Shown: positions 13,937-64,000 of the stretch, piece after piece
Position numbering within the stretch: the stretch's first letter is position 1
Layout: each line of letters opens with the position of its first letter
Source of the DNA: Tetracentron sinense
Lineage: Eukaryota; Streptophyta; Magnoliopsida; Trochodendrales; Trochodendraceae
Direction: 5' to 3'
Length of the DNA stretch: 64,000 nucleotides
Assembly: GCA_015143295.1 (NCBI GenBank)
Contig: CM026552.1
Coordinates: 60,940,944-61,004,943 of the forward strand
Program-made: the position numbers and the translations under genes
The notes under the pieces: generated by a model
What the model saw: the letters and a program-made list of their open reading frames with translations, nothing else
What the model was told of the DNA's origin: nothing
Databases searched by the model: none

Positions 13937-14360
13937 TTTCTCTTCCCTGACAACCTTGCGATTTAGAAGAGCGAACAATGCAAGAGCCCCATCCCCCAAA
14001 ATTTCAATCCCAGATCCCAATACTCTCTTACACTCAAGAAATGTCTGAAAATAATACAATGTAGACAAGAAGATTGTTATTAGAATTTTAAGGGAGATGG
14101 GTGAGGCAGGAGATCTTGATTCTTGAGAGAGATCTGCCAAATTATATTACAGAGTGCTGAAATATCTAGGGTTTTTAGTTGGCGCTCCCTCCCTCACCGA
14201 GAAAAAAAATAAAAATAAATCAAAACTCCCTCCAAACCCGCCGAGATTCTCTTTCTTTTTGTGTTTTGTTTTATAGTCCAAATCTTTCTTTTATTCACCT
14301 TAAATTTCTTCATCCTCTTTCTTAGCCCTTTTTCTTTCCTTTTTCTATCCTCTTTTCATA
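13937..14360 (-). promoter_or_regulatory. STI: STI 5' UTR and proximal promoter region
   Basis: Upstream of the chosen start, an acceptor-like TTATTTTCAG (about 14045, minus strand) suggests a 5' UTR intron. Near 14179 there is TTGGCGCT, resembling an E2F core, and pyrimidine-rich tracts on the plus strand follow. The transcription start cannot be placed from sequence alone. Confidence 0.4.
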
Positions 14361-16117: not shown

Positions 16118-16446
16118 ACTATTGTAAGCACCCCAATTTTGCAACCCTCTAGTCACTTTTCATACCCTTAAAAACCCTTTTAAAAATCCTCTTTTAAAAT
16201 CCTCATTCGGCGTGCTTCAATTTTCAAAAACGGCCCAGAGGTGAAAAATGACCAAAATGCCCCTAGGGTAAAAAATGACCAAAATATCCCTAAAAAGTAC
16301 TGAAAATTTTATATTTTATCTAAAATATTTTTTTAGATGTTATCAATTCAATTTTAACTATTTTCGGGCTCAAAACAGAAAATCGGCTTTTCGACGAATC
16401 AAAAAGCGCCACGTGGCACAAAAATGATTTTTTAAACCCCTAAATA

Positions 16447-16634
16447 GGGGCGCTACTTCAAACAACACCCCCAGAATTACATTTTTTCCCTTGGACTGGT
16501 CAAAACCATGTCAGCATATTTTTTTAATAAAATAAATGGGGCCGCCTCACCCGTTTTGCCGCCTCACTGTTTACCACCGCCCTGCTTTTTGGGGTTTTTA
16601 TCCACAGGGGCACTACTACAAGTAGCGCCCCCCT
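16447..16634 (+). promoter_or_regulatory. GGGGCGCTACT hairpin motifs in 5' LTR
   Basis: Two dyads at 16447-16472 and 16607-16632, each of the form GGGGC(G/A)CTACT, short loop, AGTAGCGCCCC or a degenerate version. The second ends about 15 bp before the TATA box. Confidence 0.7.
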
Positions 16635-16924
16635 GTTTTGAAAACCTATAAATACCCCACCCCATCTCCTTCATTCTCATTCCATTCTCTCTCACTCTTC
16701 TCTCTTTTCTTCTTCAAAACTCTTCGGAGCGCTTCGGATTCCCGATAACGTCGATTGCGAATGGTCGATTCTCGGGACTTCTTTTTAGAAATCTTTTGAG
16801 ATTTTCCGGAAGGTAATTTTTCTCAAAAACTCTATCTTGCTTTGTCTTTTAGTAATTTAAATTAGTTTAACCACTTTTTCAAATTGTTTTTAAATTATTT
16901 AAATACTTAGACTGCTTATCCTAT

Positions 16925-17155
16925 TGAACCCCTGCCTAAATTCCAGTTTAAATATAGTCTCGCCTAGTCGAACATCTGCCCAAATTTCAGATCAAATATA
17001 GCCTCGCCTAGTCGAACCTCTGCCCAAATCCTGATTCAAAACTAGTCTCACCTAGTTGAACCTCTGCCCAAATCCCGGTTCAAAACTAGCCTCGCATAGT
17101 CGAATCCCTGCCCAAATTCCAGTTCAAAACTAGCCTTGTCTAAGTCGAACCTCTG
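16925..17155 (+). repeat. CTAGTCGAACCTCTGCCC tandem array (5' LTR)
   Basis: About five units of 45-50 bp sharing CCTAGTCGAACCTCTGCCCA and TTCAAAACTAGCCTCG. It recurs in the 3' LTR at 27690-27915. Confidence 0.8.
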
Positions 17156-17159
17156 CCCG

Positions 17160-17450
17160 GAAACCCTGATTAAACCCTAGTTAATCCTAATGAAATCCCA
17201 GTTAATCCTGATTAAATCCCAGTTAACCCTAGTTAAACCCTGATTAAACCCCAGTTAATCCTAGTTAAACCCTAGTTAACCCTAGTTAAACCCTGATTAA
17301 ACCCCAGTTAACCCTAGTTAAAGTCTCAGTTAATCCTAGTTAAACCCTAGGTAAACTCCAACTATACCCTACCTAAACCTTAGGCAAACCCTACCTAAAC
17401 CCTAGGTAAACCCTACCTAAACCTTAGGTAAACCTTGGCTAAACCCCCTT
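17160..17450 (+). repeat. Telomere-like CCCTAGTTAAA degenerate array (5' LTR)
   Basis: Dozens of imperfect units such as AACCCTAGTTAAACCCTGA and AACCCTAGGTAAACCCTACC. They resemble but are not the plant telomere repeat CCCTAAA. The array recurs in the 3' LTR at 27925-28215, so it belongs to the LTR. Confidence 0.8.
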
Positions 17451-18213
17451 CCTACCTAGTCAAACCCCTGTTAGAGCCTCGATTCAAACCCTGTTCAGAT
17501 TCCAACCTTTGCTTCTCAGCACGAGCTTAAACTGCCTCATTGCTCCTCAGCACGAGCTTAAAAGGTCATTTCGCTCTCAAATCAGCGAAATCCATCAAAT
17601 CAAATCATCCAACCTTTTGCTCCTCAGCACGAGCTCAAAAGGCAATTTCGCTCCTCAAATAGGAGCAAAAAACCTCAAACCTTTCAATCACCGATAATCC
17701 AAACCATCAAAAACCCTCAAACCTTTCAATCACCCATAATCCAAACCATCAAACAATCAAACCATCAATCGCCTTCCGGAACTACATGTGGCTTGATTCC
17801 ACTAATAGTGGATACGTAGGCAACCCTGATCGGGTTCAGCTCCCCTAGGATAGAATCCCTATTCCGTTTCTATCTTGTCTATCTCAATTCATTTATTTCA
17901 GTTAATATTACATTACTCAACATATAGATCAAATTGCAAACTTCTTTATGGTTTCCTTTATTTGATTCAGACTTACAGAGTAGGTAACCATCTCCGGATA
18001 GGAGTTTAGGAGTGCCTAACACCTTCCCCTAACTCAACTGAATCATTTACCCTGACCTCTGACTTCCAGACTATGCCTTATCTAACTATTTCAGGAACCT
18101 GTTACCCTCAGAATTAGGTAGGTGGCGACTCTCAACTCAATTGCAATTTATCACTTATACCTCATCGGGATCCAACCTAATCGGGAATAGGGGTTAAAAT
18201 TTAGGTACTCATA

Positions 18214-23590: not shown

Positions 23591-24130
23591 ACATTCACTG
23601 TGCACATACATTCACAATGTTATCTACACTACATGCTTTCATATAGTTTGTCACACTACGTACACACATTCGCCATGTTAGCTCACTATGCATGCACATT
23701 AAGTAAGTCACACTCTGCACATATATCTACATAGATTAGTTGTATTATGCTTATTTCCACTTAGTTGCACACTGCATAGCCACCACATGTGTTCGCACTA
23801 CACACATACATTTTTTGCTCGCTACGCACGTGCATTCCCAATGTTAGTAACACTACACACACACATTTACATAGCTAGCCACATAGCATTCAAAATGTTA
23901 GTTACTCTCTGTACGCACATTCCACATAGTCAACCACGCTGGACACACATAATCACGATATTAGTTATACTATTCACACACATCGGCACCGCAAACACTC
24001 ACAAAGTAAGTCGCACTCTATGTAGACACATCCACGTAGTTGCACTATGCACTCATATCACACGTAACAAACTACACACATGTCCATTAGCCAAATGAAA
24101 TAAGTGAAGCTGGATTCTCAAAAGGGTCTC
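23591..24130 (+). other. CACA-rich degenerate repeats between arrays
   Basis: Loose repeats such as CACACATTC, GTTAGT(T/C)AC and ACACACATA with no fixed period. No coding content. Confidence 0.5.
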
Positions 24131-24149
24131 TAAGCATCCCATAGAGCTT

Positions 24150-25330
24150 TTTCCGCGCCCCGTACTCATCTCAGCTTTCCGTAAGCATTTTTCGCACTCC
24201 GTGCATATCTCAGCTTTCCGTATGCATTTCCCTGTGCTCCGTGTCATCTCAGCTTTCTGTAAGCATTTCCCCGTGCTCCGTGCGCATCTCAGCTTTCCGT
24301 AAGCATTTCCCCGTGCTCTATGCGCATCTTAGCTTTCCATAAGTATTTTCCTGCCCTCCGTATGCATCTCAGCTTTCCGTAAGCATTTTCCCACACTCCG
24401 TACGCATCTCGGCTTTCCGTAAGCATTTTCCCACGCTCCGTGCGCATCTCAGCTTTCCGTAAGCATTTCCCTGCACTCCGTGCGCATCTCGACTTTCCGT
24501 AAGCATTTTTCCGCACTCCGTGCGCATCTCGGCTTTCCGTAAGTACTTTCCCATGCTCCGTGCACATCTCAGCTTTCCGTAAGCATTTTCCTGCGCTCCA
24601 TGCACATCTCGGCTTTCCGTAAGCATTTTCTTGCACTCCGTTCGCATCTCGGCTTTCCATAAGCCTTTCCCCGCACTCCGTGCGCATCTCAGCTTTCTGT
24701 AAGCATTTTCCCGCGCTCCGTGCGCATCTCGGCTTTCCGTAAGCATTTTCCCACGCTTCGTGCGCATCTCGACTTTCCGTAAGCATTTTCCCACGCTTCG
24801 TACACATCTCGGCTTTCCGTAAACATTTTCCCGTACTCCATGCGCATCTCAGCTTTCCGTAAGTATTTTTTCGCACTCTGTGTGCATCTCAGCTTTCCGT
24901 AAGCATTTTTCCATGCTCCGTGTGCATCTCGGCTTTCCGTAAGTATTTTCCCGTGCTCTGTGTGAATCTCAGCTTTTCGTAAGTATTTTCCTGCGCTCCG
25001 TGTGCATCTCAGCTTTCCGTAAACATTTTACCGCGCTCCGTACGCATCTCAGCTTTCCGTAGGCATTTTTCCACCCTCCATGTGCATCTCAACTTTCTGT
25101 AAGCATTTCCCCGCGCTCCGTGTGCATCTCGGCTTTTCGTAAGCATTTCCTCGCGCTCCGTGCGCATCTTAACTTTCTGTAAGCATTTTCCCGCACTCCG
25201 TGCGCATCTCGGCTTTCCATAAACATTTTCTTGTGCGCATCTCAGCTTTCTGTAAGCATTTTCTCGCGTTCCGTGCACATCTCAACATCCCGTATGCATT
25301 CCCAGCGCTTCGTGCGCATCCCAGTATTCC
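24150..25330 (+). repeat. Tandem array 2 of the Tat element, 40-bp unit, about 29 copies
   Basis: The unit is approximately TCTCAGCTTTCCGTAAGCAT then TTTCCCGCGCTCCGTGCGCA. Three units make 120 bp, so long minus-strand frames with a 40-residue period stay open. Those frames are a by-product of the repeat, not a protein. Confidence 0.93.
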
Positions 25331-25434
25331 GTATGTACACCCCTGGTACCTCAAGTGCGCCATTCTAGCATTCCTGTGCATTGCACAACACCTGCAAACT
25401 AAAATTCATGCACTTCTTGCTCAATCCTATCCGT

Positions 25435-25580
25435 TGACATCGTAATGTGTTGTCATCCACCCCTTTAATCTGGTAGACATCGCCCCGCTTGTCATCGACC
25501 CTTTTAATCTGGTTGACATCGTAATGTGTTGTCATCCACCCTCCCATCACCCATCTAGCAGACATCGGAATGGTTGTCAC
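25435..25580 (+). repeat. GACATCGTAATG short array, about 38-bp unit
   Basis: Three to four imperfect units with TGACATCGTAATGTGTTGTC and ATCCACCCCTTTAATCTGG. Confidence 0.7.
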
Positions 25581-25591
25581 CCATCATTTCA

Positions 25592-26460
25592 ATTTTCAAC
25601 ACTTCAAAATCGATCCCTCCTGTGAAGAGGCTAAAAGCAATATTTCAAAATGGATCCCTCCCGTGAAGAGGTTAAAAGAAACATTTCAAAATCGATCACT
25701 CCTGTGAAGAGGTTAAAAGCAACACTTCAAAGTCGATCCCTCCTATGAAGAGGTTAAAAACAACACTTCAAAATCAATCCCTCCTGTGAAGAGGCTAAAA
25801 GCAACATTTCAAAATCGATCCCTCCTGTGAAGAGGTTAAAAGCAACACTTCAAAATCGATCCCTCATGTGAAGAGGTTAAAAGCAACATTTCAAAATCAA
25901 TCCATCCTGTGAAGAGGTTAAAAGCAACACTTCGAAATCAATCCCTCCTGTGAAGAGGCTAAAAGCAACATTTCAAAATCGATCCCTCCTGTGAAGAGGT
26001 TAAAAGTAACACTTCAAAATCGATCCCTCCTGTGAAGAGGTTAAAAGCAACACTTCAAAATGGATCCCTCTTGTGAAAAGGGTAAAAGCAACACTTCAAA
26101 ATCGATCCCTCCAGTGAAGAGACTAAAAGCAACACTTCAAAATCGATCCCTCCTATGAAGAGGCTAAAAGCAACACTTTAAAATCGATCCCTCTTGTGAA
26201 GAGGCTAAAAGCAACACTTTAAAATCGATCCCTCTTGTAAAGAGGGTAAAAACAACACTTCAAAATCGATCCCTCTTGTGAAGAGGCTAAAAGCAACACT
26301 TCAAGATCGATCCTTCCTGTGAAGAGGCTAAAAGCACATTTCAATCAAGCAATCCCTCATGTGATGAGGCTAAATCCACAATTTAATCAATTAATCCCTC
26401 CTGTGATGAGGCTAAATCCACAATTTAATCAATTAATCCCTCCTGTGATGAGGCTAAACT
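25592..26460 (+). repeat. Tandem array 3 of the Tat element, 41-bp unit, about 18 copies plus a 46-bp variant
   Basis: The main unit has AACACTTCAAAATCGATCCC then TCCTGTGAAGAGGTTAAAAG. The last three copies (about 26340-26460) are a 46-bp variant with GTGATGAGGCTAAATCCACA. Confidence 0.93.
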
Positions 26461-26739
26461 CACATATTTCAATTGTTTCCTCCGAAATGAGGTGAAGAAT
26501 TATCTTTCATTAATCTCGGATGTTTCATCACTAAGGATGAACCATTAATTTCTCCTCTCTATCCCCTAGCAACTGAACAGGTTCTCCCATCAACCCCGTC
26601 CTCTAGGATCTCATTTGTGGCAAACAGTCTAAGCATAATTTAACTTTTCCTTTTTTCTTTTGTCTTCAAACTCACAAGTTTTTTCGCACATGCAAAATTG
26701 AGGTCATATAACCTTTGTCGTTCACATGCCCGCACCCTC

Positions 26740-26756: not shown

Positions 26757-27187
26757 TGTAAGTACCCCAATGTTGCACCCCTCTAGTCACTTTTCATACC
26801 CTTAAAAACCCTCTTTTAAAATCCTCATTCCGCGTGCTTCGATTTTCAAAAAGGGCCTAGAGGTGAAAAATGACCAAAATACCCTTGGAAAAGTGCTAAA
26901 AAGTTATCATTTTATCCAAAATAATTTTATAAATTTTTTGGTGAATTTTGGCTATTTTTGGGATTAAATTAGACTTAAAATGGTGAAAAATGACCAAAAT
27001 GCCCCTGGAGTACAAAATGAGCAAAATACCCCTAAAAAGTACTGAAAAATTCATATTTTATCTAAAATATTTTTTTGGATTTTATCAGTTCAATTTTAAC
27101 TATTTTCGGCCTCAAAACAGAAAATCGGCTTTTCGATGAATCAAAAAGCGCCACATGGCACAAAAAGATTTTTTAAACCCCTAAATA

Positions 27188-27397
27188 GGGGCGCTACTTC
27201 AAACAGCGCCCCCAGAACATTTTTGCCATTGGACTGGTCAAAACCATGTTGGCATATTTTTTTAATAAAATAAATAGGGGCGCTACTTCAAGTAACGCTC
27301 ACCCAGTTTGCACCTGTTTTGCCGCCTCACTGTTCACCACCGCCCTGCTTTTTGGGGTTTTTATCCATAGGGGCGCTACTAGAAGTAGCGCCCCCCT
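27188..27397 (+). promoter_or_regulatory. Three GGGGCGCTACT hairpin motifs in 3' LTR
   Basis: Dyads at 27188-27213, 27277-27300 and 27370-27394. The last is perfect: 11-bp arms GGGGCGCTACT and AGTAGCGCCCC around a 3-base loop, just before the TATA box CCTATAAATATC. Confidence 0.75.
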
Positions 27398-27689
27398 GTT
27401 TTGAAAACCTATAAATATCTCACACCATCTCCTTTATTATCATTCCATTCTCTCTCATTCTTCTCCCTTTTCTTCTTCAAAACTCCTCGGAGCGCTTCGG
27501 ATTCCTGAGAACGTCGATTGCGAATGGTCGATTCTCGGGACTTCTTTTCAGAAATCTTTTCAAATTTTTCGGAAGGTAATTTTTCTCAAAAACCCTATCT
27601 TGCTTTGTCTTTTAGTAATTTAAATTAGTTTAACCACTTTTACAAATTGTTTTTAAATTATTTAAATGCTTAAACTGCTTATCCTGTCG

Positions 27690-28215
27690 AACCCCTGCCC
27701 GAATTCCAGTTCAAATATAACCTCACCTAGTCGAACCTCTGCCCAAATTCCAGTTCAAATATAGTCTCGCCTAGTCGAATCTCTGCCCAAATCCTGGTTC
27801 AAAACTAGCCTTGCCTAGTCGAACCTCTGCCCAAATCCCGATTCAAAACTAGCCTCGCCTAGTCGAATCCCTGCCCAAATTCTAGTTCAAAATTAGCATT
27901 GTCTAAGTCGAACCTCTGCTTGAAAGCCCTGATTAAACCCCAGCTTAACCCTGATTAAACCCTAGTTAATCCTGATCAAATCCCAGTTAATCTTGATTAA
28001 ATCCCAGTTAACCCTAGTTAAACCCTGATTAAACCCCAGTTAATCCTAGTTAAACCCTAGTTAACCCTAGTTATACCCTGATTAAACCCCAGTTAACCCT
28101 AGTTAAAGTCTCAGTTAATCCTAGTTAAACCCTAGGTAAACTCCAGGTAAACCCTACCTAAACCCTAGGTAAACCCTACCTAAACCCTAGCTTAACCCTA
28201 GCTAAACCCTGGCTA
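27690..28215 (+). repeat. CTAGTCGAAC and CCCTAGTTAAA arrays (3' LTR)
   Basis: Counterparts of 16925-17155 and 17160-17450 in the 5' LTR, with small differences in unit number. Confidence 0.8.
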
Positions 28216-28950
28216 AACCCTTCCTACCTAGTCAAACCCCTATCAGAGCCTCGATTCAAACCCTATTCAGATTCCAACCTTTCGCTCCTCAGTACGAGCT
28301 TAAACTGCCCCATTGCTCCTCAGCACGAGCTTAAAAGGCCATTTCGCTCCAAAATTAGCGAAATCCATCAAATCAAATCATCCAACCTTTCGCTCCTTAG
28401 CACGAGCTTAAAAGGTCATTTCGCTCCTCAAATAGGAGCAAAAACCCTCAAACCTTTCAATCACCCATAATCCAAACCATCAAACAATCAAACCATCAAC
28501 CGGCTTCTGAAACTACGTGCGGCTTGATTCTACCAATAGTGGATACGTAGGCAACCCTGATCGAGTTCAGCTCCCCTAGGATAGAATCCCTATTCCGTTT
28601 CTATCTTGTTTATCTCAATTCATTTATTTGAGTTAATATTACATTGCTCAACATATAGATCAAATTGCAATCTTCTTTATGGTTTTCTTTATTTGATTCA
28701 GACTTAGAGAGTAGGTAACCATCTCCGGATGGGAGTTTAGGGGTGCCTAACACCTTCCCCTAACTCAACTGAATCCTTTACCCTAACGTCTGACTTCCAG
28801 ACTATGCTTTATCCAATTATTTCAGGGACCTATTTCCCTCAGAATTAGGTAGGTGGCGACTCTCAACTCAATTGCAATTTATCGCTTATACTTCCTCGGG
28901 ATGTAACCTAATTGGGAATGGGGGGTTAAAATTCAGGTACTCACAACTAT

Positions 28951-30655: not shown

Positions 30656-31909
30656 TGTAGAACCCCGGAACTTTTGTACATGGTTGATGAAAAATACTTT
30701 CATGGCCAAAGGGCCTTCCATATACCTTGAGCTTTTGATTAATGGGAAACAAGGTTGAAAACGCTCAAAGGGGTCTAAGGGTGTTAAACCAAGAGTGTGA
30801 AACACTCTAAATGATCAAAGTATGACCAAAGTTGAAAAAAAGAAAAATGTCTTCACATACCCTCAACTTTAGGGATGCATAGTTTGGTCACCGCTAATCG
30901 GAATTGAGTGATTCTTGAATTTTTGGAAAGATATCGAAATCTCTTCGAGGTTCATGATTATCATTTTTCCATATTTTTAGTTGAAGATAGGTTAAACATT
31001 TGATTTTTCTGAAATTGGGTGTGCTGAAAAATCCGGGTTGCTGAAATCCATTCCAAACCAGCCAGATTTAGAGTCCATTTAGGTAATTAAAAACTCAGAA
31101 TTAGGATTTGTCCATTATATACAAAATTGTTCCCCTTTGAATGAAAATTCTATCACAAGTTTAATCGTTAAAATCCAATAAGCGAGTCAAAAGTTATGGT
31201 CAAAACACCAAAGGGGACAAAGCGGGGTAGCAACCGGTCGACCCAACCTCATTCGGTTGACCGAGTGCAATCTTCGGTTGACCAAATGGCCCAAAATTTG
31301 TATGGGAATTTTTTTCATAGAGCTGATTTCGAACCGGTCGACCGATGGACACCTTCGGTCAACCGAACCTCACACTTTTGGCCTTTTGTTCATTTTAAAG
31401 TCATTTCATTAAGGGTATGTTGGTCTTTGACCACCTCATTGCCCATATATACCCAAATTTCATGGGTTAAGGTTTCATAAACCTTCTAAGACACAATTGG
31501 AGGGATTTTAGAGAGAAGAAGAAGGAAGAACAAGGTTCTTCTAGGGTTTTGGCTTGTTGGGTCTTGAGATCAAGGTGGAAGCTCGACTCTTGCTCCTCAA
31601 AGCTCGAAGTTAACTCTTTCAAGCCTTCTCAACATTTCTCAAAAGAGATTCAAGCTTTGCAAGGTATGTACCTTCTACTACCTAGCTTGGTGATAATTTA
31701 AATATTGAAATGTAGGATTCCAAGCAAGATTTGTTAGTAGAAATTGTAAGTATACCCTTCTAGTTAACCTAGAGATAAACTAGATCCCAAAACCTAGTTT
31801 TCCAAGCTTGAAATGTTGAGATTTCTTCCATGTGTTTCAAATTCCTAAATCTACCATGATTTTCCTAAAAGGTATGAACTATAAAGTGTGATATGGATGT
31901 AATAGGTGA
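30656..31909 (+). mobile_element. LTR family A, 5' part, outermost host of the nest
   Basis: Starts TGTAGAACCCCGGAAC. It contains the palindromic module, TATA box CATATATACC near 31443, a leader with paired CTC/GAG-rich segments, and a donor-like GCAAGGTATGTACC near 31658. At 31910 a family B LTR begins. The rest of LTR A is not seen to the right within the window. Confidence 0.7.
31228..31372 (+). promoter_or_regulatory. Palindromic GGTCGACC module in LTR A
   Basis: ACCGGTCGACC, TCGGTTGACCGA and TCGGTTGACC precede a core AAATTTGTATGGGAATTTTT; CCGGTCGACCGAT and TCGGTCAACCGA follow it. The arrangement matches families C, D, E and R, with GGTCGACC replacing CGATCGATCG. Confidence 0.7.
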
Positions 31910-34039: not shown

Positions 34040-34195
34040 AAGGTCAACCCTGACCATTTTGGGTCGACCTTGGGTATAGCAAAATTTGTATGGTGTTTTT
34101 TGGCAGAGAGATGAAATAGTGTGGGTCGCCCTGAGGACCACCCGATCGACTGAAAGACACCAACCAGTCGATCGAATGATCCCCATGGGTCGACC
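34040..34195 (+). promoter_or_regulatory. Palindromic module in element D 5' LTR
   Basis: GGTCGACC- and CGATCGA-type motifs flank AAATTTGTATGGTGTTTTTT and CAGAGAGATG, upstream of TATA box TTTATATAGA near 34309. The D 3' LTR repeats it at 39325-39475. Confidence 0.65.
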
Positions 34196-39324: not shown

Positions 39325-39475
39325 AACCCTGACCATTTTGGGTCGACCCTGGGTATAGCAACATTTGTATGGTGTTTTTTGGCAGAGAGATAAAATAGTG
39401 TGGGTCGACCCTGAGGACCATCCGGTCGACCAAAAGACACCATCCGGTCGAGTGAATGATCCCCATGGGTCGACC
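39325..39475 (+). promoter_or_regulatory. Palindromic module in element D 3' LTR
   Basis: Second copy of the D module, with GGGTCGACC motifs and CCGGTCGACC around an ACATTTGTATGGTGTTTTTT core. Confidence 0.65.
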
Positions 39476-43723: not shown

Positions 43724-43910
43724 CACCGATCGCTCGGTCCAGTCAGCGATCGATCGGTCCATAACCGATCGATCGGTAGCTATCGCACGGTCAGAAATTT
43801 TTTATGGGGAAATTTTCCAGAGAGTGAGTTTTTGTCCGGTCGATCGGTCATAAACACCGATCGCTCGGTAGGCAACCGATCGATCGGTCATAACAACCGA
43901 TCGCTCGGTC
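43724..43910 (+). promoter_or_regulatory. Palindromic CGATCGATCG module in solo LTR C
   Basis: Seven units of the ACCGATCGATCGGT or ACCGATCGCTCGGT type. The core TTTATGGGGAAATTTTCCAG lies between the first and last groups. Confidence 0.8.
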
Positions 43911-47753: not shown

Positions 47754-47810
47754 ACCGATCGCTCGGTAGGCAACCGATCGATCGGTCATAAACACCGATC
47801 GCTCGGTCCT
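47754..47810 (+). promoter_or_regulatory. Palindromic CGATCGATCG module in LTR E (short form)
   Basis: Three palindromes, ACCGATCGCTCGGT, ACCGATCGATCGGT and ACCGATCGCTCGGT, without the TTTGTATGGGG core. Confidence 0.75.
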
Positions 47811-53388: not shown

Positions 53389-53574
53389 ACCGATCGCTCG
53401 GTCCAGTCAGCGATCGATCGGTCCATAACCGATCGATCGGTAGCTATCGCACGGTCAGAAATTTTGTATGGGGAAATTTTCCAGAGAGTGAGTTTTTGAC
53501 CGGTCGATCGGTCAATAACACCGATCGATCGGTAGGCAACCGATCGATCGGTCATAACCACCGATCGCTCGGTC
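53389..53574 (+). promoter_or_regulatory. Palindromic CGATCGATCG module in element C LTR
   Basis: Seven palindromes (ACCGATCGCTCGGT, GCGATCGATCGGT, ACCGATCGATCGGT, ACCGGTCGATCGGT and repeats) around the core TTTGTATGGGGAAATTTTCC and AGAGAGTGAG. Confidence 0.85.
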
Positions 53575-54560
53575 TTCGTGTTTTTCAGAATTTTCATTAA
53601 GGGCTTTTTCGTCTTTTGGGGGTCAAACCCTTTCTCCTTAAGGCTTGCCCGAGCCTTAGGGCATCATTCACTATACTTAGAGAGATTTGGGAGATAAGAG
53701 AGAAGAGAAAAGGGTTTCCTAAACCTAGGTTGCTTTTGGAGAAGAAATCAAAGGGGTGAAGACCCTAGATCGTCCACAAGCACGTTTTCTTCAAGATTTC
53801 AACTCAAGCTCGGGTGGGGTGCATTCGCAAAGCTAGGGCAGCCCTCACTCACATTTTTGAAATGGATTTCTTCCCCAACTCCAGCTTCTTTCAAGCAAAG
53901 GCTTCATCTTTCAAGTTGGAGCTTCAATCAAGGTTCCTACCAAGGATTCAAGCCTTGATTCAAGGTTAGTACACTCTACTAACTTTCTTTAGCAATAGTC
54001 TAGATTTTCTATTGTGAAATGTGACTCTTGGTAGTATGTTTTCTTCCTTATAAAATGTATCATCTCCACTAAAGATAAACAAGATAAGAAAAATGTATGG
54101 ATGTGTGGATGGGATGTCGATTGAGGCGATTGGATGCCGTATGGATGTTGTGTGATGTGTGAAATGGAAAATGGAAGATGGGCACTTTACAAATAACGAA
54201 TGTACCTTGATGTCTTGATGAAAAATACGCACTAAATAAGGGAAATGGAAGGACTAAGAAATGTTGCCCACCGTGTGTTTGATAAAATGACTAAACAAGG
54301 GATAAATAGACTTAATGAAGAAAATGGAAATAGAAATTGTGTAAATTTTCTTAGGAATGATAAATTGCTCAAATGTTCTATATGTTGCCTAAATTTTCAT
54401 ACCACTATGTTAGGGATTGAAATGCCATATTCATGTGATCCGCCCATCCAAGTATGTCATCATGATTTTCCACTATTGACAAGCACACAAGCACGCATGC
54501 ATGCATGAATTGGGTTTTCCAAGAGTAATTGTGCATAATAAAGCAAACAAGAAAATGAAA

Positions 54561-54896
54561 CATGACAAGGAGGTTGGTAGCCCAGGTGAAGGGTACTACT
54601 AGCCTCTGGCTCACAAGTGAAATGAAACAAGAACATGACAAGGAGGTTGGTAGCCCAAGGAAGAGTGCTAGCCTCTGGCTCACAAGAGAAATGGAACAAG
54701 AACATGACAAGGAGGTTGGTAGCCCAAGGAAGGGTGCTAGCCTCTGGCTCACAAGAGAAATGGAACAAGAACATGACAAGGAGGTTGGTAGCCCAAGGAA
54801 GGGTGCTAGCCTCTGGCTCACAAGAGAAATGGAACAAGAACATGACAAGGAGGTTGGTAGCCTAAGGAAGGGTGCTAGCCTCTGGCTCACAAGTAT
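54561..54896 (+). repeat. Tandem array in element C LTR, about 68-bp unit, five copies
   Basis: Same unit as the solo C LTR array, with one copy more or less and small internal differences. Arrays of this kind vary in copy number between otherwise near-identical LTRs. Confidence 0.92.
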
Positions 54897-55138
54897 ACAA
54901 GTCAAGAACAAATCAAGACATGAAATACAAGACAAGACACGACACACATACATGATTTGACCGAGACACGAAAAAGGTTTCCGAGACATGAGTTTTACCG
55001 AGGTTTTTGCATTCATACACGCATGTCAAGATATGGCTATGTATCTTATGCTTTCACTATTGCTTTAAATTAATATCTTGTATTGCTCACTGTTATTATG
55101 CTTTCGCTATTGTTATGATTAGCTAGTAGTTTGTACTC

Positions 55139-55159
55139 GCTGAGTATTCCATGCTCAGC
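55139..55159 (+). promoter_or_regulatory. Conserved CTGAGTATTCCATGCTCAG hairpin
   Basis: GCTGAG and CTCAGC arms around TATTCCATG, followed 11 bp later by TATGTCGGCAG. The same motif occurs at about 40174, 45423, 49203 and 49574 in LTRs that otherwise differ. Confidence 0.7.
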
Positions 55160-55177
55160 CGTACTTTTATGTCGGCA

Positions 55178-55309
55178 GGTACTGTGGATGTCCTCGACCC
55201 CGAGCCTTGGGTCGAGGAGGAGTATGTAGAGGAGAGGGAGCCACCTATCCCATGGCAGTCTCAGGAGGATGGGGACTTGGATGTGTGGCCATACCTCGAC
55301 TACTGTTGA
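55178..55309 (+). other. Acidic 43-codon reading frame in element C LTR
   Basis: Frame with LDPEPWVEEEYVEER, QSQEDGDLDVWPYLDYC and a TGA stop, directly after the acceptor-like TATGTCGGCAG. Whether it is ever translated is unknown. Confidence 0.55.
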
Positions 55310-55925
55310 GAGGAGAGGGTTCGAGAGTTCCTTTTTGTATTTTGATAGGTGGGCATGTCCACCTTTACTTTGATTGTATTTGGTATATGTTAACTTGGAA
55401 TACTATTTGGAGTTATAGAAGAAAAGAAAAAGTTGGCTTATGCTTCCGCACTTATGTTTAGTTTCCGCGCTCTGATTATCATTGTATTATATTATGTTTA
55501 GCCTCTTGCATTACAGGATGGTTTGACAGGTACACGTAGTCACCTCTAAAGTATCCCTTAACTCCTAGGGGGTATTTTGGGGCGCGACAGAAGTGGTATC
55601 AGAGCTCTAGGCATTAGAGTCCCTAGGGTCACATAGGAATGATACCATGATTGAACTAGGTATTAGAATTACCTTAAAGAGTTGTATTCCAAGTATGGAC
55701 TAACAAGTTAGTCCTAGTCAATAGGTTGAATCTCAACCAAACTTAGAGTCCTACGCTAGGAACACGGATTGTATGTATGATGTTGTGTTGTATACCATGT
55801 GTGTATTAATTGTGTTATGCTTATTAAAATATGTTTGATGAATATGTATTGAGCGAATTACGAAATTTGTACTAAATGCGTATCCAAGTTAGACTCATGT
55901 TGTATTGTCGTTCTCAGGAGAAATC

Positions 55926-57179
55926 ATGAGACGCAATACCCGGGGTCGCGGGTACAACACGAGGGGCAATGGAGGTGATGCTCCATTGGGTGATGATCAA
56001 CCCGACTTTGCCCAAGCATTCGCATCCATAGCCGAGACTTTGGCTATGTCGGCGGCAAGGCAACCGGCCACTCCGCCTAATGCGGCACTTATACCGGCTC
56101 CTCCTAACCGAGCCCAAGCCGGGATAGAAGCTTTTCGGAGGATGAGGCCTCCAACTTTTTGTGGAAGCATTGATCCACTTGTTGCCGAGGGTTGGATCCG
56201 GCAACTTGAGAAGATATTCTTGGTATTGGCACCTACGGAAGTAGAGAGGGTCACATGGGCTGCCTTTATGCTTGAAGGCGAGGCCGACCATTGGTGGAAG
56301 TCTGCACTTCGGACCCGAGAGTTGACCCGGCAAGGCCAGGAATGGACATGGGGAGAATTCTTGGACGTTTTCTACAAGAAATACTTTCCGGTTGGGATGA
56401 AAGAAAAGAAAGAAATTGAATTTATTACCTTGGAGCAAGGTAATATGTCTGTAGCGGCTTACGAAGCCAAGTTCTCAGAGCTATCTCGATTTGCTCCACA
56501 CATGATAGCTACCAAGGCTATGAAGGCCCGGAAATTCGAGAGGGGGTTGAAGGCGTACCTCAAGGATCGTGTCTCAATGTTCCGACATGAGACATATTCA
56601 GAAGTTGTGGACAAGGCATTGTTGGCCGAGTCGAATTCCGAAGAGTTCTTTAAGAGAAGAGGAATAGAGAAGGGACAGTCTAGTAGTTCAGGGGAGAAGA
56701 GAGCTAGGACTATGTCTTATCAGTCCGCAGGGCCGGCTCAGTCACAGAGGATGTACTCGGCACCACAGGCCCCCCGCCCTTTTGCTCCACCGGCTTTTCG
56801 CCCGGCTACCTCGTATGCTTCTCGCCCCGTAGTGACTCAGGCTACGGGTTATACTCCTCCCACTTATTCACATGATGTCTGCACCCTTTGTGGAAGGAGG
56901 CATCCAGTAGGGGAATGTCGGAAGGCTACAGGAGGCTGTTTTCCTTGTGGCGACCAGGGCCACATGATTCGGGATTGTCCCCGACGTCGATTGCCAGCTC
57001 AGTCTTCATGGAGCAGGCCCCCGATTAGGCAGACATCTCAGCCTAGCTCTTCTCAGGCTTCGAGGGCCTCACAGTCTACCCGGCCTCCTCGCCCAGCAAC
57101 TCAGGGTCGAGTTTTTGCTCTATCGGAGAGAGACGCACGTGCATCCGACGATGTCGTGCAAGGTACGCGAGAATTTTGA
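55926..57179 (+). CDS. Element C gag (Ty3/gypsy, looks whole)
   Basis: About 418 codons from MRRNTRGRGYNTRGNGG. The retrotransposon gag domain carries IDPLVAEGWIRQLEKIF, EGEADHWW, FYKKYFPVGMKEKKEIEF and LEQGNMSVAAYEAKFSELSR. A proline/serine-rich linker follows, then CPCG-type cysteines and a CCHC knuckle CFPCGDQGHMIRDC. This pattern suits plant chromoviruses of the Tekay/Del group. Gag forms the virus-like particle. An AT-rich spacer of about 120 bp separates it from the protease-like region. Confidence 0.85.
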   Translation: MRRNTRGRGYNTRGNGGDAPLGDDQPDFAQAFASIAETLAMSAARQPATPPNAALIPAPPNRAQAGIEAFRRMRPPTFCGSIDPLVAEGWIRQLEKIFLVLAPTEVERVTWAAFMLEGEADHWWKSALRTRELTRQGQEWTWGEFLDVFYKKYFPVGMKEKKEIEFITLEQGNMSVAAYEAKFSELSRFAPHMIATKAMKARKFERGLKAYLKDRVSMFRHETYSEVVDKALLAESNSEEFFKRRGIEKGQSSSSGEKRARTMSYQSAGPAQSQRMYSAPQAPRPFAPPAFRPATSYASRPVVTQATGYTPPTYSHDVCTLCGRRHPVGECRKATGGCFPCGDQGHMIRDCPRRRLPAQSSWSRPPIRQTSQPSSSQASRASQSTRPPRPATQGRVFALSERDARASDDVVQGTREF

Positions 57180-57299
57180 GTTTAAGTTGTATAAAATTTC
57201 TATGGTTTATTATATGATTATTTATACTAAGGGTTACCTATGTATGATGCTTGTTGTTGTTTGAAATCTACTAATAGTAGCTACTTAATCGCACAGGCG

Positions 57300-57581
57300 C
57301 TTTATTAGTGAACGAGTGTCTCGCCCGAGTGTTGATCGACACAGAATCCACTCACTCCTTTGTGTCACCTAGTTTCGCGAAGGGATTTTTGACTGAGGCT
57401 ATTCCGTTAGAGCGGGAGTTGACCATTGCAACTCCACTCGGCAAGTCAGTTGATACGGACAAGATATTCAGGGATAGTGTGGTTCAAGTGGGGGAGAATG
57501 AACTGTTAGCCGATCTTATCGTCCTGGATTTCCAAGACTTAGACTTTGACGTCATTCTTGGTATGGATTGGTTGGCAAACC
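57300..57581 (+). pseudogene. Element C protease-like region, cut by LTR insertion
   Basis: Reads like plant gypsy retropepsin: LVNECLARVLIDT, a HSFVS stretch, and the second conserved block DFDVILGMDWL. It ends where an E-type LTR begins at 57582, so the domain and all downstream pol are separated from gag in this copy. Confidence 0.75.
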
Positions 57582-57791
57582 TGTAGAGCCCCGGACCTTT
57601 TCACATTTAATGCACGACACTTTCGTTGCCATCTTGCCTTCAAAGAGGTATAATTAATAAATAAGGAAGAAATTGGAAATTCCGAAACGTCAGAAATGTT
57701 CCTTTTCGAAATACGAACCCAACGCAAGTTGAATCGTCAAAATCCGACGAGCGAGTCAAAAGATCTGGCCAAAACAGTCTGGACCTGCAGG

Positions 57792-57979
57792 CAACCGATC
57801 GCTCGGTCCATTGCAGCGATCGATCGGTCCAAAACCGATCGATCGGAGGCTATCGACTGGTCAAGATTTTTGTATGGGGAAATTTTCCAGAGAGTGAAAT
57901 TTTAACCGATCGCTCGGTTATGAAACCGATCGATCGGTAGGCAACCGATCGATCGGTCATTAACACCGATCGCTCGGTC
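57792..57979 (+). promoter_or_regulatory. Palindromic CGATCGATCG module in LTR E'
   Basis: Seven palindromes around TTTGTATGGGGAAATTTTCC and AGAGAGTGAA. The core is identical to that in element C LTR. Confidence 0.85.
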
Positions 57980-59269
57980 TTCGTGTTTTTGCAGAAATTT
58001 CGGTAAGGGCTTTTTCGTCATTTGGGCATTTCACCCTTCCTTTATAAGCCTTGCACGAGCCTAAGGGTTTCATAAACCCTTAGGGCAGATATTTGAGAGA
58101 GAGTGGGAGAGGAGAAAGGGGTTCTAACCTAGGGTTTCAACTTGAGAGTGAATCAAGGGTTTAAACACCCAAGATCATCCCAAAAGGGCTTGGATTCATC
58201 AAATCCAACCTCAAACTCGTGTGGCATTCCCATTCCAAGCTAGGGCAGCGATCCTACGGCATTTTTGAAAGGGGTTTCTTCCCCAAATCAAGCCTTCTTC
58301 AAGTAAGGGTTCTTCCCTACCATTTGAGGTTCGATTTCAAGGTTTCTTCAAGGTCAAGCCTTGATTTCAAGGTTAGTACACCCTACTAACTACTTTAGTA
58401 ATAACCTAGGTTGTTTTAAAAGCATGTTTGTGGATTTCTTTAGTTTATTCTTTTCTTGTTTTACTTTATTAAATCCCTAAAACAAACAAGATAGAGAGGC
58501 AATCGTGGAGATGAGGCGATTGGATGCCATGTGTTGTGATGGATGTATGTTGGAAAATGGTGGAAGGGTATTGTACTCATAATGAACACACCATGTGTTT
58601 GATGAGATGTTAGAACAAGAAAAATATGCATAAATGAGTATAACAATGTTGAACACCACATGTTTGTTAAAATGCTTGTATGAGAAGTAGTATGTTTAAT
58701 TAAGTCTATAACGTGCATGATTTTGGTATTGTTCCCTAAGAGGTGAAATTGATCAAATGCTCTTTATATTGCTTACATACGCACATGACTATCAATAGAA
58801 AGTGGAAATGCTATATGAAGTCCCAATGGTGAAACGCTTGAATAGGAAAAACATGAATAAAAAGATCTACAATGATGTCAAATGCTAGGTGTTCGTTCAA
58901 ATGCATGAATTAGAATTAGAACCAAGAATATGAAGCATGAATTAGGAAGATTTTCTCAAAGGTGTACCTATGCTAGAACACTCAATATTTTGACTTTAAA
59001 ACTCACATGCCTAGGGGAAATTATAAATCCCGTATGATGTCCCTTTAATTCAGGTTATTATGCTCACAAATTGTCAAGCACACGCACACGCACACGCGCA
59101 TGCACGAACCTATTTAAAAAATATACGTATATGAAACAACAAGAACAAGAATAAGAGAGGCCAAGCATAAGGGATGCTAGTTGCGACGGACTATGAACGG
59201 CAGCTAGACATACCCAATTTCAAGAGAATATGAACTAGTAAAGAACTCGTAAGAACTTGTAAGGACTTG

Positions 59270-59512
59270 AAGGACTCGTAAGAACTTGTAAATTAGTGGG
59301 ACGGCCTGGGGAGCGCCACTAATCATCTGATATTCCCAAGCTACTTTGGGTGGGTGTTTAGTGGGATGGTACAAAAGGCGCCACTAAGGATGAACTTGTA
59401 AGAACTCGTAAGATAGTGGGATGGCCCGGGGAGCGCCACTAACCATCTGATATTCCCAAGCTACTTTGGGTGGGTGTTTAGTGGGATGGTACGAAGGGCG
59501 CCACTAGTGAAT
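59270..59512 (+). repeat. Tandem array in LTR E', about 118-bp unit, two copies
   Basis: Units hold TAGTGGGACGGCCTGGGGAG, CGCCACTAATCATCTGATAT, AAGCTACTTTGGGTGGGTGT and a second GCGCCACTA. Shorter AAGAACT(C/T)GTAAG repeats flank it. Confidence 0.88.
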
Positions 59513-60048
59513 AACTCACAAGAACTTGTATGCTCACAAGAAAGTTATAAGAAGTCGAAAGCTCAGAAGAACTCGTAAGCTCATAAGAAAGGCTATAAGA
59601 ACTCGCATAAGGAACCTACAAGACTTATAAGACATTGAAATATGTATGGTAAAGCATGAAGTTAGAATATGATTTAATTGATTTTGTTCAGGATTATGTA
59701 ATTGTTACCTTGTTTCCTTCCGCACTCTGATTGTAAATCCCTAAATAGGTGTTGGCAAATTCCGTGATCATTAGATAGGTCAGTTGAGTCGAGTCCTCGA
59801 ATCATGTTCAACTTGTCAGAAAAGAAGAGAAGAGCTAAAGCTTAAAGAAGATAGAAGAAAGAGAAGAAAAAGGTTCTACTCCGGATCTAGACAGGTAATG
59901 GACTTAGAGACCCCTACCTAGGTTTGATTTGACTTAGATAACTCTAAAAATACCTAGGAGGATAGATTTAAGCCTACCAAAGTTATTTGATCTTAGTTGA
60001 ATCAAATAAAAATAAAATGAATTAATTTTGGCAAAAATTCTGTCTCAA

Positions 60049-60232
60049 CCGATCGCTCGGTATTGCGACCGATCGATCGGTGGCCTACCGAGCGATCGGT
60101 GGCTATCGACTGAACTAAATATTTGTATGGGGAAAATTTCCAGAGAGATGTTTTAAGACCGAGCGATCGGTCATTAGATCCGATCGATCGGTTGTGAACC
60201 GAGCGATCGGTTGTGAGCACCGATCGATCGGT
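60049..60232 (+). promoter_or_regulatory. Palindromic CGATCGATCG module in copia element R LTR
   Basis: Seven palindromes (ACCGATCGCTCGGT, ACCGATCGATCGGT, ACCGAGCGATCGGT types) around TTTGTATGGGGAAAATTTCC and AGAGAGATG. The TATA box CTATATAAAC follows near 60278. It is almost the same module as in the gypsy LTRs C and E'. Confidence 0.85.
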
Positions 60233-61031
60233 CCCCGTAAAAAGAATTTTTCTTTTTCTGGATTCTTTTTTTAACCCTATATAAACAACTTTTGAGAGAC
60301 CTAATTCGTGTCTTTGATAATTTTTGAAAGAGTAGAGGTCTGAGAAACTCTTCTAGGGTTTTTCTAATTGTTTTTAATTAGATCTTTGTGATCCCTCCTC
60401 TTTCTTAGATCCTAGAGAATGCAAGTATAGATTAAAATCTTTGATCTTGCATTGTGTGATCTCAGATCTGTATGAGATCCCTCTAGGGTTTGAAATTTAC
60501 TAAATTGATTCACAACCCTACACCTTGTGTGTGTGTCCGGTGTTTGATCCGGAGCCTTCGTGGAAGGAGATCGATCGTGTGTGATCGTGGATTTGAAGTT
60601 GCTTGAAAAGATTTGGTCGGTGTGGAACTGAAGCTGCTAAGGCGGAGATCGAACCTGCTGGTTCGTGGAAATCAAGAGTAAGAGTCTATACCTAGGAACA
60701 TTGTTTCTGTTTTGGTAAGGTCTTATTTTGTACTTGATATCTTTTCATAGTGAAGTTTATTGCTGGACAAGGTCCCGTGGTTTTTTCCCGTTAGGGTTTT
60801 CCACGTAAAAATCGTCTGTGTTTGATTTGTGTGGATTGTCTGATTGAGTTAATCATTGATTTTTAAACATATTAATTGAAAAATTAAAATTGGTTAGAAA
60901 TCATTAGATAGACCTATTCACCCCCCCTCTAGGTCTTAGAGATCATTGATCTGGATAAATTTCAATTGGTATCAGAGCTAGTTCACTGATAAGGCTAATC
61001 CCTTAAGTGTGATCCTGTATTATCCGTGATC

Positions 61032-64000
61032 ATGAGTACTCTAAGAGAAGGAGGATCCGTCTCTCGTCCCCCACTTTTTGATGGAAATAATTATGCATAC
61101 TGGAAAGCCAGAATGAGAGCCTTTCTCAAATCAATTGACGAGAGAATTTGGATGTCTATACAGAATGGGTGGACTACGCCCGTAAAAACTGTAGGTGATT
61201 TGACTGTCGTCAAATATTCTGATGAATGGACCAGAGAAGAGCTTGATTCAAGTGGATGGAACACTAAAGGTCTCAATGCTATCTTTACTGCAGTCACTGC
61301 TGAGGAATTCAGACGAATTTCTTCATGTGAAACAGCAAAGGAGGCTTGGGACATTCTTGAAATTACCCATGAGGGTACTACCACTGTTAAAATCTCAAAA
61401 CTCCAAATGTTAACCACCAAATTTGAACATTTAAACATGGACGACAATGACACTTTTGATGAATTCTATGCAAAACTTAGTGACATTGTCAACGCTAGTT
61501 TCAATTTAGGTGAGAAAATATCTGAGTCCAAAATAGTTAGAAAAGTCCTTAGATCTCTCCCAGAGAGATTTCAACCCAAAGTCACTGCAATCGAAGAGAG
61601 TAAAAATGTTGACTCTCTGAAGATTGAGGAATTGGTTGGATCACTCCAAACCTATGAACTCAATCTACGTCCATCCAAGAAGAATAAATCTTTAGCCTTG
61701 AAAACCATCAAGGAAACTTTGGATGAGGATGACAGTGATGGAGAAATGAATGAGGAAGAAATGGCTCTTTTCGTTAAAAAATTTCGAAAATTTTTTAGAA
61801 CGAAAAAGAGGTTTAATCCCAAACAGGGAGGAAAATCTTTTGATAAGTCAAAGTCTAAGCCCTGGGAAAACAAGAAAAATTCCAAAAGTGGCGACAAGAA
61901 ATCCCAAGGTGTTCAATGTTATGAATGCCATGGCTTCGGTCATATTTCACCTAACTGTCCTAACAAGAAGAAGAGTAAGGGCAAGGTGATGAATGCCTGT
62001 TGGGATGACAGTGATTCCGAGAATGAAGAATCGAACAGTTCCTCTTCAAATGAAGATACTGGAAATCATACGGCTTTCACTGTTTCCCTATCTGGGATTC
62101 TTGAGACTACCTCTGCGGTTGATGAAAAGGATAGAAGTGATGAAAGTATTCATACTGAGTCAAGTGATGACTTACAGAAGAGTCAAACTGACTCTGAAAG
62201 TGATGAAGATTTGAAAACAACTTATGATAAGTTGTATGCTGAAAGTTTAAAACTGACTAAAACAAAAATCTCTTTGAGCAAAAAACTCAAATTCATTCAA
62301 AATGAAAGAGATATCTGTAAACTAGTAGCAGAAGAGAAGAGTGCACTAGTTAGTCAGTTGGAAAATGAAAAAGAAGCATTTGTTATAAAAGTTCAATGTC
62401 TTTTGGAAGAGAATGTCTCATTGACTAATGTGGTCAGAAAATTAGAAAATGAAAGAGACACTTCCATGAAAGAAATTGAAGAGTTAAAAACTCTGCAAAT
62501 GGAGCTGGAAACTTTTAAAGTCTCTCTTGTTGATAAGGTGAAATTTCTTGAAAAAGAACACCAAATTACCCTTAAAGACAAGACTGACTTGATTCAGAAG
62601 GTCTATACTCTTGAAAAAGAAGTGAGAATGTTTGGTAACACCAGCTGCCTAGATGAATTAGTCAGAAAGTATGGATCAAATTCTAGTAGATCTGGGATAG
62701 GACATGTTGACACACCAACTGGTCCTTTAGCTGTTGGAACAATGGCTAGTGCAGTGTTTGAGCCAATACATTCTGAATCCAAAGAAAATTTACCTTCTAC
62801 ATCAAGTACTAAGGCTTATACAAATATTGTAAAGCCGAGAAATACAGCTCCTAGAGTGAATGCTTTAAGGAATCAAATTCCAGTTAGAAGAAATCTTCCT
62901 CCTCTACCAAGATTCATACCCACATGTCACTTTTGTGGTGTAAGAGGTCACATTCGACCTAATTGTAATGCATTTAGGAGAGCTCCCCAAAATGGTTCAT
63001 GGAACCAAAATCTGAGTCAAGGGACTCTTCAAAGGCAGATTCAGGTTCTAGCTGAAAAGTCTAGAATGTTGAGCGATGATGTTAACAGAATTGCTCAAAT
63101 CTCTAGGACAAGGACTGGTCAATTTATTCCAAATGATTATTCAAGAGGAAATAATTTGACTTATCACAAAACTAGAACTGAACAAAACAGAAAAAGGTCA
63201 AGGAGGACAAAAAGGAAAAAGGTCTCTACTACACAGATTAATGATCAAAGATCTAAACAAAGTTTAAAGACTGTGTATGTGAGAAAGGAAGACCTTAAGT
63301 GCTTTGTCATTCATACTGCCTTGAAAGCCCAAAACACAGAAATGTGGTACTTCGATAGTGGGTGTTCTCGGCATATGACAGGTAACAAGTCCTTATTTAT
63401 TCAATTTGAGGACTGTCCTGATGGGACTGTTACTTTTGGTGATGGAAGCAAGTCATTAGTCAAAGGAAAGGGAATCATCAATTCACCAGGCATACCTAAA
63501 TTGAAAGATGCCTTGTTTGTTGAAGGACTGAAAGCTAATTTAATTAGCATAAGTCAACTATGTGATGATAATCATGCTGTGCACTTTACCCAAAATAAAT
63601 GCTTAGTCATTAATGGTAAAGGTAAGTGTGTTCTAGAAGGATTGAGAACCACTGACAATTGCTACGGCTTAACTCCCAGTACTATTCCCTCAAATGTCTG
63701 TTATAAGACTAGAATTGAGGAGATTGATTTGTGGCACCGAAGACTAGGTCACATGAACTTCAAAGACCTATGTAAAATCTCTAAGCAAGAGCTTGTGAGA
63801 GGTGTTCCCAAACTAGGAAAGCCTTCTACTGCTGTGTGTGGGCCATGTCAAATTGGTAAACAAATTAGGACCCCACATAAGAAGACTTCAAGTATTGCTA
63901 CTTCATATCCACTGGAATTAATTCATATGGACCTTATGGGTCCTACAAGAACTGAAAGTCTAGGTGGAAAGCGATACATCCTAGTCATGGTTGATGATTT
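61032..64000 (+). CDS. Element R gag-pol (open to window edge)
   Basis: From ATG at 61032 (MSTLREGGSVSRPPLFDGN) I read an open frame of about 990 codons to the edge. Order: UBN2-type gag, CCHC knuckle CYECHGFGHISPNC (about 297), acidic linker, long coiled coil (about 395-530), second knuckle CHFCGVRGHIRPNC (about 633), basic stretch, protease with WYFDSGCSRHMTG (about 770), and integrase zinc finger LWHRRLGHMN...CGPCQIGK (about 900-940), then the start of the integrase core. Two knuckles and a long coiled coil are typical of SIRE/Maximus. No break is visible in this part. Confidence 0.88.
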   Translation, partial: MSTLREGGSVSRPPLFDGNNYAYWKARMRAFLKSIDERIWMSIQNGWTTPVKTVGDLTVVKYSDEWTREELDSSGWNTKGLNAIFTAVTAEEFRRISSCETAKEAWDILEITHEGTTTVKISKLQMLTTKFEHLNMDDNDTFDEFYAKLSDIVNASFNLGEKISESKIVRKVLRSLPERFQPKVTAIEESKNVDSLKIEELVGSLQTYELNLRPSKKNKSLALKTIKETLDEDDSDGEMNEEEMALFVKKFRKFFRTKKRFNPKQGGKSFDKSKSKPWENKKNSKSGDKKSQGVQCYECHGFGHISPNCPNKKKSKGKVMNACWDDSDSENEESNSSSSNEDTGNHTAFTVSLSGILETTSAVDEKDRSDESIHTESSDDLQKSQTDSESDEDLKTTYDKLYAESLKLTKTKISLSKKLKFIQNERDICKLVAEEKSALVSQLENEKEAFVIKVQCLLEENVSLTNVVRKLENERDTSMKEIEELKTLQMELETFKVSLVDKVKFLEKEHQITLKDKTDLIQKVYTLEKEVRMFGNTSCLDELVRKYGSNSSRSGIGHVDTPTGPLAVGTMASAVFEPIHSESKENLPSTSSTKAYTNIVKPRNTAPRVNALRNQIPVRRNLPPLPRFIPTCHFCGVRGHIRPNCNAFRRAPQNGSWNQNLSQGTLQRQIQVLAEKSRMLSDDVNRIAQISRTRTGQFIPNDYSRGNNLTYHKTRTEQNRKRSRRTKRKKVSTTQINDQRSKQSLKTVYVRKEDLKCFVIHTALKAQNTEMWYFDSGCSRHMTGNKSLFIQFEDCPDGTVTFGDGSKSLVKGKGIINSPGIPKLKDALFVEGLKANLISISQLCDDNHAVHFTQNKCLVINGKGKCVLEGLRTTDNCYGLTPSTIPSNVCYKTRIEEIDLWHRRLGHMNFKDLCKISKQELVRGVPKLGKPSTAVCGPCQIGKQIRTPHKKTSSIATSYPLELIHMDLMGPTRTESLGGKRYILVMVDD

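Follow-up and report, generated by a model that had tools for sequence, protein, structure and literature searches.

The window analysed in this study is a 64,000-nucleotide stretch of the Tetracentron sinense genome (GenBank assembly GCA_015143295.1, contig CM026552.1, positions 60,940,944 to 61,004,943 of the forward strand), within which a block of ~186 bp is common to the Ty1/copia element R and to the Ty3/gypsy long terminal repeats (LTRs) C and E'. The block is composed of seven dyads placed to both sides of the core TTTGTATGG-N11-AGAGAG, with ~20 bp from one dyad to the next on either side. It lies at 60047–60233 in copia R, at 53389–53574 in gypsy LTR C2, at 43724–43910 in gypsy LTR C1 and at 57792–57979 in the gypsy-type LTR E' (window positions, + strand, as for all features below unless marked otherwise). 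The first-pass annotation of this DNA had described a shared block of ~190 bp in C, E' and R, and its coordinates were right to within a few bases. LTRs of copia and of gypsy elements would ordinarily be expected to have no sequence in common.

Element R is a young copia element. Its 5' LTR (59732–60964; TGTAAATCC...TTTCA), the ends of which were read directly, is preceded by the target-site duplication (TSD) CTGAT (59727–59731), with the same 5 bp found after the 3' LTR, which lies beyond the window in the adjoining stretch L009; the two LTRs are 99.92% identical over 1236 aligned bp. A gag-pol frame of 989 codons without a stop (61032–64000; Pfam gag_2, Pol_BBD and gag_pre-integrs) is open to the end of the window, and L009 opens with a 781-codon frame carrying rve, SH3 and RVT_2. 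The Pfam domain order gag_2, gag_pre-integrs, rve, SH3, RVT_2, with integrase before reverse transcriptase (RT), is that of Ty1/copia. R is also Sirevirus-like, as evidenced by extra polypurine tracts (AAAAAGGGGGAGAA and GAGGGGGAGAA, upstream of AAAGGGGGAGAT at the 3' LTR, in L009), the poly-C signal CACCCCCCCTCTAGG at 60919 near the 3' end of the LTR, a candidate env-like open reading frame (ORF) and two dyads before that ORF. The ORF, a stop-to-stop frame of 454 amino acids after pol with a Transposase_32 domain (PF20167), may be the env-like gene that some but not all Sireviruses have. The two dyads 5' of it are ~20 bp apart and are followed by TATAAAA, a possible internal promoter. In the same part of L009 (3470–3720), GAAAAATTTTCAGAG, which resembles the second half of the core, precedes the two dyads and TATAAAA.

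The gypsy LTR C2 (53176–55589) is a 5' LTR whose own coding sequence comes after it, with gag at 55893–57179 (PF03732, Ty3_capsid) and a protease at 57281–57586 (RVP_2), the element being cut at about 57581 by the insertion of E'. An internal copy of C, L085, matches 55547–57581 at 95.9% and encodes RVP_2, RVT_1, RNase H, H2C2 and rve, which is the Ty3/gypsy order protease-RT-RNaseH-integrase according to Pfam; a chromodomain (PF00385) in L085 is a weak match (E = 2.3e-4, 21.4 bits), under the Pfam cutoff of 25.1. E' blocks flank R 16.5 kb apart, as if R sits inside an E' element. E' blocks generally (window 57582–59727; L070–L084) are paired ~5.3–5.4 kb apart, for example on contigs C19 and C22, and a C-like gag lies just upstream of the LTR at 4 of the 15 E'-type loci; E' elements may therefore be non-autonomous gypsy derivatives.

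The geometry of the block is conserved between the superfamilies. Relative to the core, the dyad centres of R are at -67, -47, -28, +43, +64, +83 and +104, those of C2 are at exactly the same offsets, and those of E' agree within 1 bp. Nine nucleotides 5' of the core TTTGTATGG there is an asymmetric motif, CTATCGACTG, referred to here as slot 4 (60103–60112 in R, with the core at 60122–60147). The core pattern described previously is present, but the exact 20-nt core occurs in the window only in C2 and E' (two copies), with R having the variant GGGGAAAATTTCC and C1 the variant TTTTTATGG. Related forms with the same core had also been noted in LTR A and in copia D, and these were found in the gypsy-type LTR A (31228–31372) and in the 5' and 3' LTRs of D (34040–34195 and 39325–39475; D gag PF14223), with dyads of the GTCGAC type; one symmetric pair of transitions separates these (CGGTCGACCG) from dyads of the CGATCG type (CGATCGATCG). 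Shorter or degenerate forms had been reported from LTRs E and F; E does keep three dyads (47754–47810) and the dyads of F are degenerate, but the core is lost in E, in what looks like a deletion between identical dyads, and no core was seen in F on inspection. The statement that the block always stands upstream of the TATA region holds only in part. A TATA is found downstream of the core in R (TATATAA at +156), L049, L064, L087 and L089 (at +155 or +156 in all five), and also in D, L060, L040, L045 and A, but a scan for TATA[AT]A at +100 to +330 gave no match in C2, E' or L044.

This arrangement is similar to the RM boxes of Sireviruses, a likeness that the first-pass annotation had not raised. 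RM boxes are CpG-rich palindromes that recur ahead of TATA in the upper half of the LTR; they are called specific to Sireviruses and absent from classic Ty1/copia, and ENV-containing Sireviruses have further boxes 5' of the env-like gene as well (Bousios et al., 2010, PMC2829016; cited here and below from part of its text). The RM box of Vitis, CGGTCGACCG (PMC2829016), is the GTCGAC-type dyad of this study, and GTCGAC-type LTRs do carry it. In R, the seven dyads are clustered upstream of TATA and extra dyads precede the env-like ORF, as in the Sireviruses, and the block is CpG-rich, with an observed/expected CpG of 1.9 in R (0.3–0.8 in the rest of its LTR) and 1.8 in C2, judged by this ratio rather than by CpGplot. 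There are, however, three differences. The CGG-CCG signature of RM boxes is absent from the CGATCG type, CGATCGATCG, whose inner 10-mer is CGA-TCGA-TCG; the conserved core TTTGTATGG-N11-AGAGAG is unmentioned in the part of PMC2829016 cited; and the arrays are not confined to Sireviruses, being present in the gypsy LTRs C, E' and the L040/L043/L068 family.

Across the 1.16-Gb genome, the core pattern TTTGTATGG-N11-ANAGAG matches 17,233 sites (16 for the reversed control), and the signature CTATCGACTG-N9-TTTGTATGG matches 8144 (0 for the reversed control). In 1364 of the latter the spacer has the GAC form that R-family copia copies show. All five GAC-form copies for which LTR flanks were available (L061, L137, L138, L139 and L142) were R-like, and the R block itself is present at 99–100% identity in 40 places on many contigs. 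The first 30 core matches along contig C1 (L040–L069) comprise 23 gypsy-type LTRs, four copia-type (L049, L060, L061 and L064), two without a superfamily label (L042 and L067) and one likely chance match (L063), with most of these labels resting on LTR similarity to verified elements and not on coding sequence. The other sets were chosen differently, as L010–L039 and L070–L084 were retrieved for the identity of their blocks, which biases them in that respect, and L135–L142 were picked by eye among the signature matches. The core pattern also has 44 matches in viral contigs, which by a rough estimate could be chance.

The edges of the shared region are sharp, and the earlier suggestion that similarity between copia R and gypsy C is confined to the block was borne out in three ways. 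With blastn within the window (alignments over 60 bp, E up to 1e-5), the listed matches of the R LTR to C1, C2 and E' all fall inside 60046–60233, at 77–80% for the direct ones. Smith-Waterman z scores of the R block against dinucleotide shuffles were 43 (C2), 61 (E') and 4.8 (A). Outside the block, the whole flanks of R scored between -0.1 and 0.4 against C2 and E'; of the adjoining 200-bp segments, the upstream one gave -0.3 to -0.1 and the downstream one 2.4 against C2, 0.7 against E' and 3.6 against A. In a survey of edges in 34 LTRs (29 core matches in order on contig C1 and five from the window), CGATCG-type alignments between superfamilies mostly extended from -71 to -80 up to +84 to +116 of the core, with some ending sooner and extremes of -93 and +128. 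Breaks at the left edge also occur within gypsy, where L075 and L076 have the E' block at 100% and no match to E' upstream of -75, an offset good to 1 bp. The gypsy LTRs L014 and L015 have a C-type 5' flank (96%) and the block, with a downstream part nearer to LTR A (83–84%), and LTR halves are thus mosaic within gypsy too.

The LTR of R is likewise a mosaic when set against its copia sisters L064 and L087–L090. Downstream, all five align with R from +144 to +223 up to +835 to +841, at 71–75%, and upstream four of the five (not L088) align within -391 to -165, with offsets good to 1 bp; since L087–L090 were fetched through downstream similarity to L064, only the upstream matches are independent. 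Inside the block, alignment is seen at the core only, in L064. Results with the R-family copy L139 in place of R are alike, the core matches here being in L064, L087 and L088. The sisters do have a block of the same general plan at the same place, but built of GTCGAC dyads. Both dyad types occur in both superfamilies, with GTCGAC in the gypsy LTRs A, L045, L053 and L058, and CGATCG in C, E' and the L040 group. The median block identity, inflated by the common dyads in every comparison, is 0.74 between CGATCG copia and CGATCG gypsy (132 pairs, maximum 0.79) and 0.59 between CGATCG copia and the GTCGAC copia sisters (30 pairs); it is 0.52 between CGATCG and GTCGAC gypsy, and for GTCGAC copia 0.56 against CGATCG gypsy and 0.53 against GTCGAC gypsy.

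The explanation favoured here, and considered rather probable, is that in this genome copia and gypsy LTRs came to share a promoter array of the Sirevirus RM type through transfer of the block, not because they descend from one LTR as a whole. The earlier note had left the choice between module exchange and convergence; the sharing of a confined module is real, and exchange is better supported than convergence, which keeps some probability, on three grounds: the asymmetric stretch CTATCGACTG-N9-core, an array geometry that is identical, and the mosaic in the copia lineage. The convergent account would have a generic RM-type array, old in both superfamilies, in which the specificity of a host factor drove the change from GTCGAC to CGATCG separately in each. 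This is somewhat unlikely, but it does agree with the presence of both types in both superfamilies, one symmetric transition pair apart. It is harder to reconcile with the seven dyad centres being in identical register in R and C2, or with the non-palindromic segment, in which 43 of 45 nt agree between R-family copia L139 and the gypsy LTRs L068 and L062, and 37 of 38 nt between L138 and gypsy L135 (12 duplicate or unassigned rows having been left out of this comparison). The N9 between slot 4 and core differs among gypsy families, yet copia L049 and gypsy L136 have the same 9 nt. The gypsy version of the 45-nt segment is found at two places 7.5 kb apart in one element, with a gypsy RT between them that has 80% amino acid identity to C over 233 amino acids, and the LTR flank of this element is 89–94% identical to L040, L041, L043, L062 and L068. 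A copia assignment of the L040/L062/L068 group, raised by a copia pol just 5' of the L068 LTR, was rejected, as the similarity to pol stops close to where the LTR begins and the element of this family has the gypsy RT.

Several results weigh against transfer and would fit parallel change instead. Without slot 4, the spacers of R match those of gypsy near chance (0.28–0.40 in five rows, null 0.27, p 0.03–0.51), and the copia sister L064 does no worse than gypsy (0.44, p 0.037), so R's outer spacers may be of copia descent; with slot 4 included, ten CGATCG gypsy rows score 0.41–0.48 (p up to 0.0085) and L064 0.38 (p 0.09). In approximately unbiased (AU) tests on 30 and 40 hand-chosen representatives, neither a single clade of all copia blocks (p = 0.052 and 0.143, respectively) nor the grouping of R with its GTCGAC sisters (p = 0.178 and 0.108) was rejected. 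On this result the cassette could have entered copia once, long ago, with its dyads changing later, but even then sharing between the superfamilies is needed. Added to these are the inflation of block identities, a C2 upstream flank that is also CpG-rich (observed/expected 1.51), and the copia label of L064, L049, L137–L139, L142 and L087–L090, which stems from LTR similarity to R (and, for L049, an env-like stretch). In favour of transfer, a 40-row tree places the CGATCG blocks (6 copia and 22 gypsy rows) in one clade (100/99). The trees do not point to one direction of transfer. A 79-row tree, which left out L002–L008, L061, L012 and L074 (duplicates), L063 (chance), L009 and L085, and the bootstrap of which had not settled, has R and L049 within a clade of CGATCG blocks (97/96) that holds 66 rows from gypsy and 3 from copia. 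With more copia rows, in the 40-row tree, the copia and gypsy CGATCG blocks become sister clades.

Two further alternatives named in the first-pass annotation do not hold. A separate small transposon inserted into each LTR would account for the sharp edges, but these edges are the outer dyads themselves, reading them showed no TSD, a block of the same general plan sits at the same place in the GTCGAC sister LTRs, and 27 of the 30 inspected core matches are in LTRs assigned to a superfamily; this reading is rejected as highly improbable. A misassembly or chimeric contig, in favour of which no point was found, is refuted by the multiplicity of the block, both in the near-identical R copies and in the 8144 signature matches, as well as by the TSD and near-identical LTRs of R and by similarity that stops at the block, and is barely conceivable.

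If the block was transferred, as favoured here, the unit would be the block or at least its centre and dyads, and it would represent a promoter-proximal regulatory cassette of CpG-rich dyad boxes around a core, upstream of TATA in copia. LTR transcription may be driven by dimeric host factors that bind the dyads and the core; with dyads every 19–21 bp, or two helical turns, such dimers would line up along the same side of the helix within each half of the array. The transfer could go back to template switching while an element was being reverse transcribed, or else LTR copies nested in one another could have recombined or undergone conversion. Identical dyads appear to recombine, judging from the deletion in E and the left-edge breakpoint in L075 and L076, and could guide template switching or conversion. 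More tentatively, the promoters of plant copia and gypsy LTRs may draw on a common exchangeable cassette, in which core and geometry are kept and the dyad letters turn over in step from GTCGAC to CGATCG in both superfamilies, with repeated crossings and with promoter history uncoupled from element history.

A 2016 paper in Genome Research is reportedly concerned with maize Sirevirus palindromes. No report of an array shared between copia and gypsy was found among the listed titles and abstract openings of openly licensed papers, and neither were the gypsy carriers, the core or the mosaic. LTRs of Del, a gypsy group, have a 5' CpG-rich region, with CpG islands that are poorly conserved, variable in length and mostly absent from the cluster holding all eudicot Del elements (Cruz et al., 2014, PMC4029996; cited from part of its text); by difference to the present block, the words palindrome and tandem repeat are absent from the text of that paper, and no link to copia LTRs is made in the part cited. 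Grass centromeric retrotransposons also recombine between elements to give mosaic LTRs that then amplify, as seen here, with partners within one gypsy lineage in the part of PMC4079200 cited and of different superfamilies in this study.

If a cassette with >8,000 signature copies does cross the superfamily boundary, classification by LTR would be open to error, elements of unrelated classes might answer to one set of host factors, and transposons could respond to host control by swapping regulatory parts. The set of blocks also offers concrete sequences for finding the factor behind Sirevirus RM boxes.

Elsewhere in the window, two adjoining tandem arrays with units of 40 bp and 41 bp (24 and 18 in-register copies) occupy 24125–26470. 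They are flanked by a pair of 2-kb repeats (16123–18211 and 26757–28943), ~90–93% identical over long parts and containing 44-bp and 11-bp tandem repeats, which may be an older LTR pair. Beside the retrotransposon nest there are pieces of a STICHEL-like gene on the - strand (11726–14146 and 1928–2605), with an AAA domain like that of DNA polymerase III gamma/tau (PF23007).

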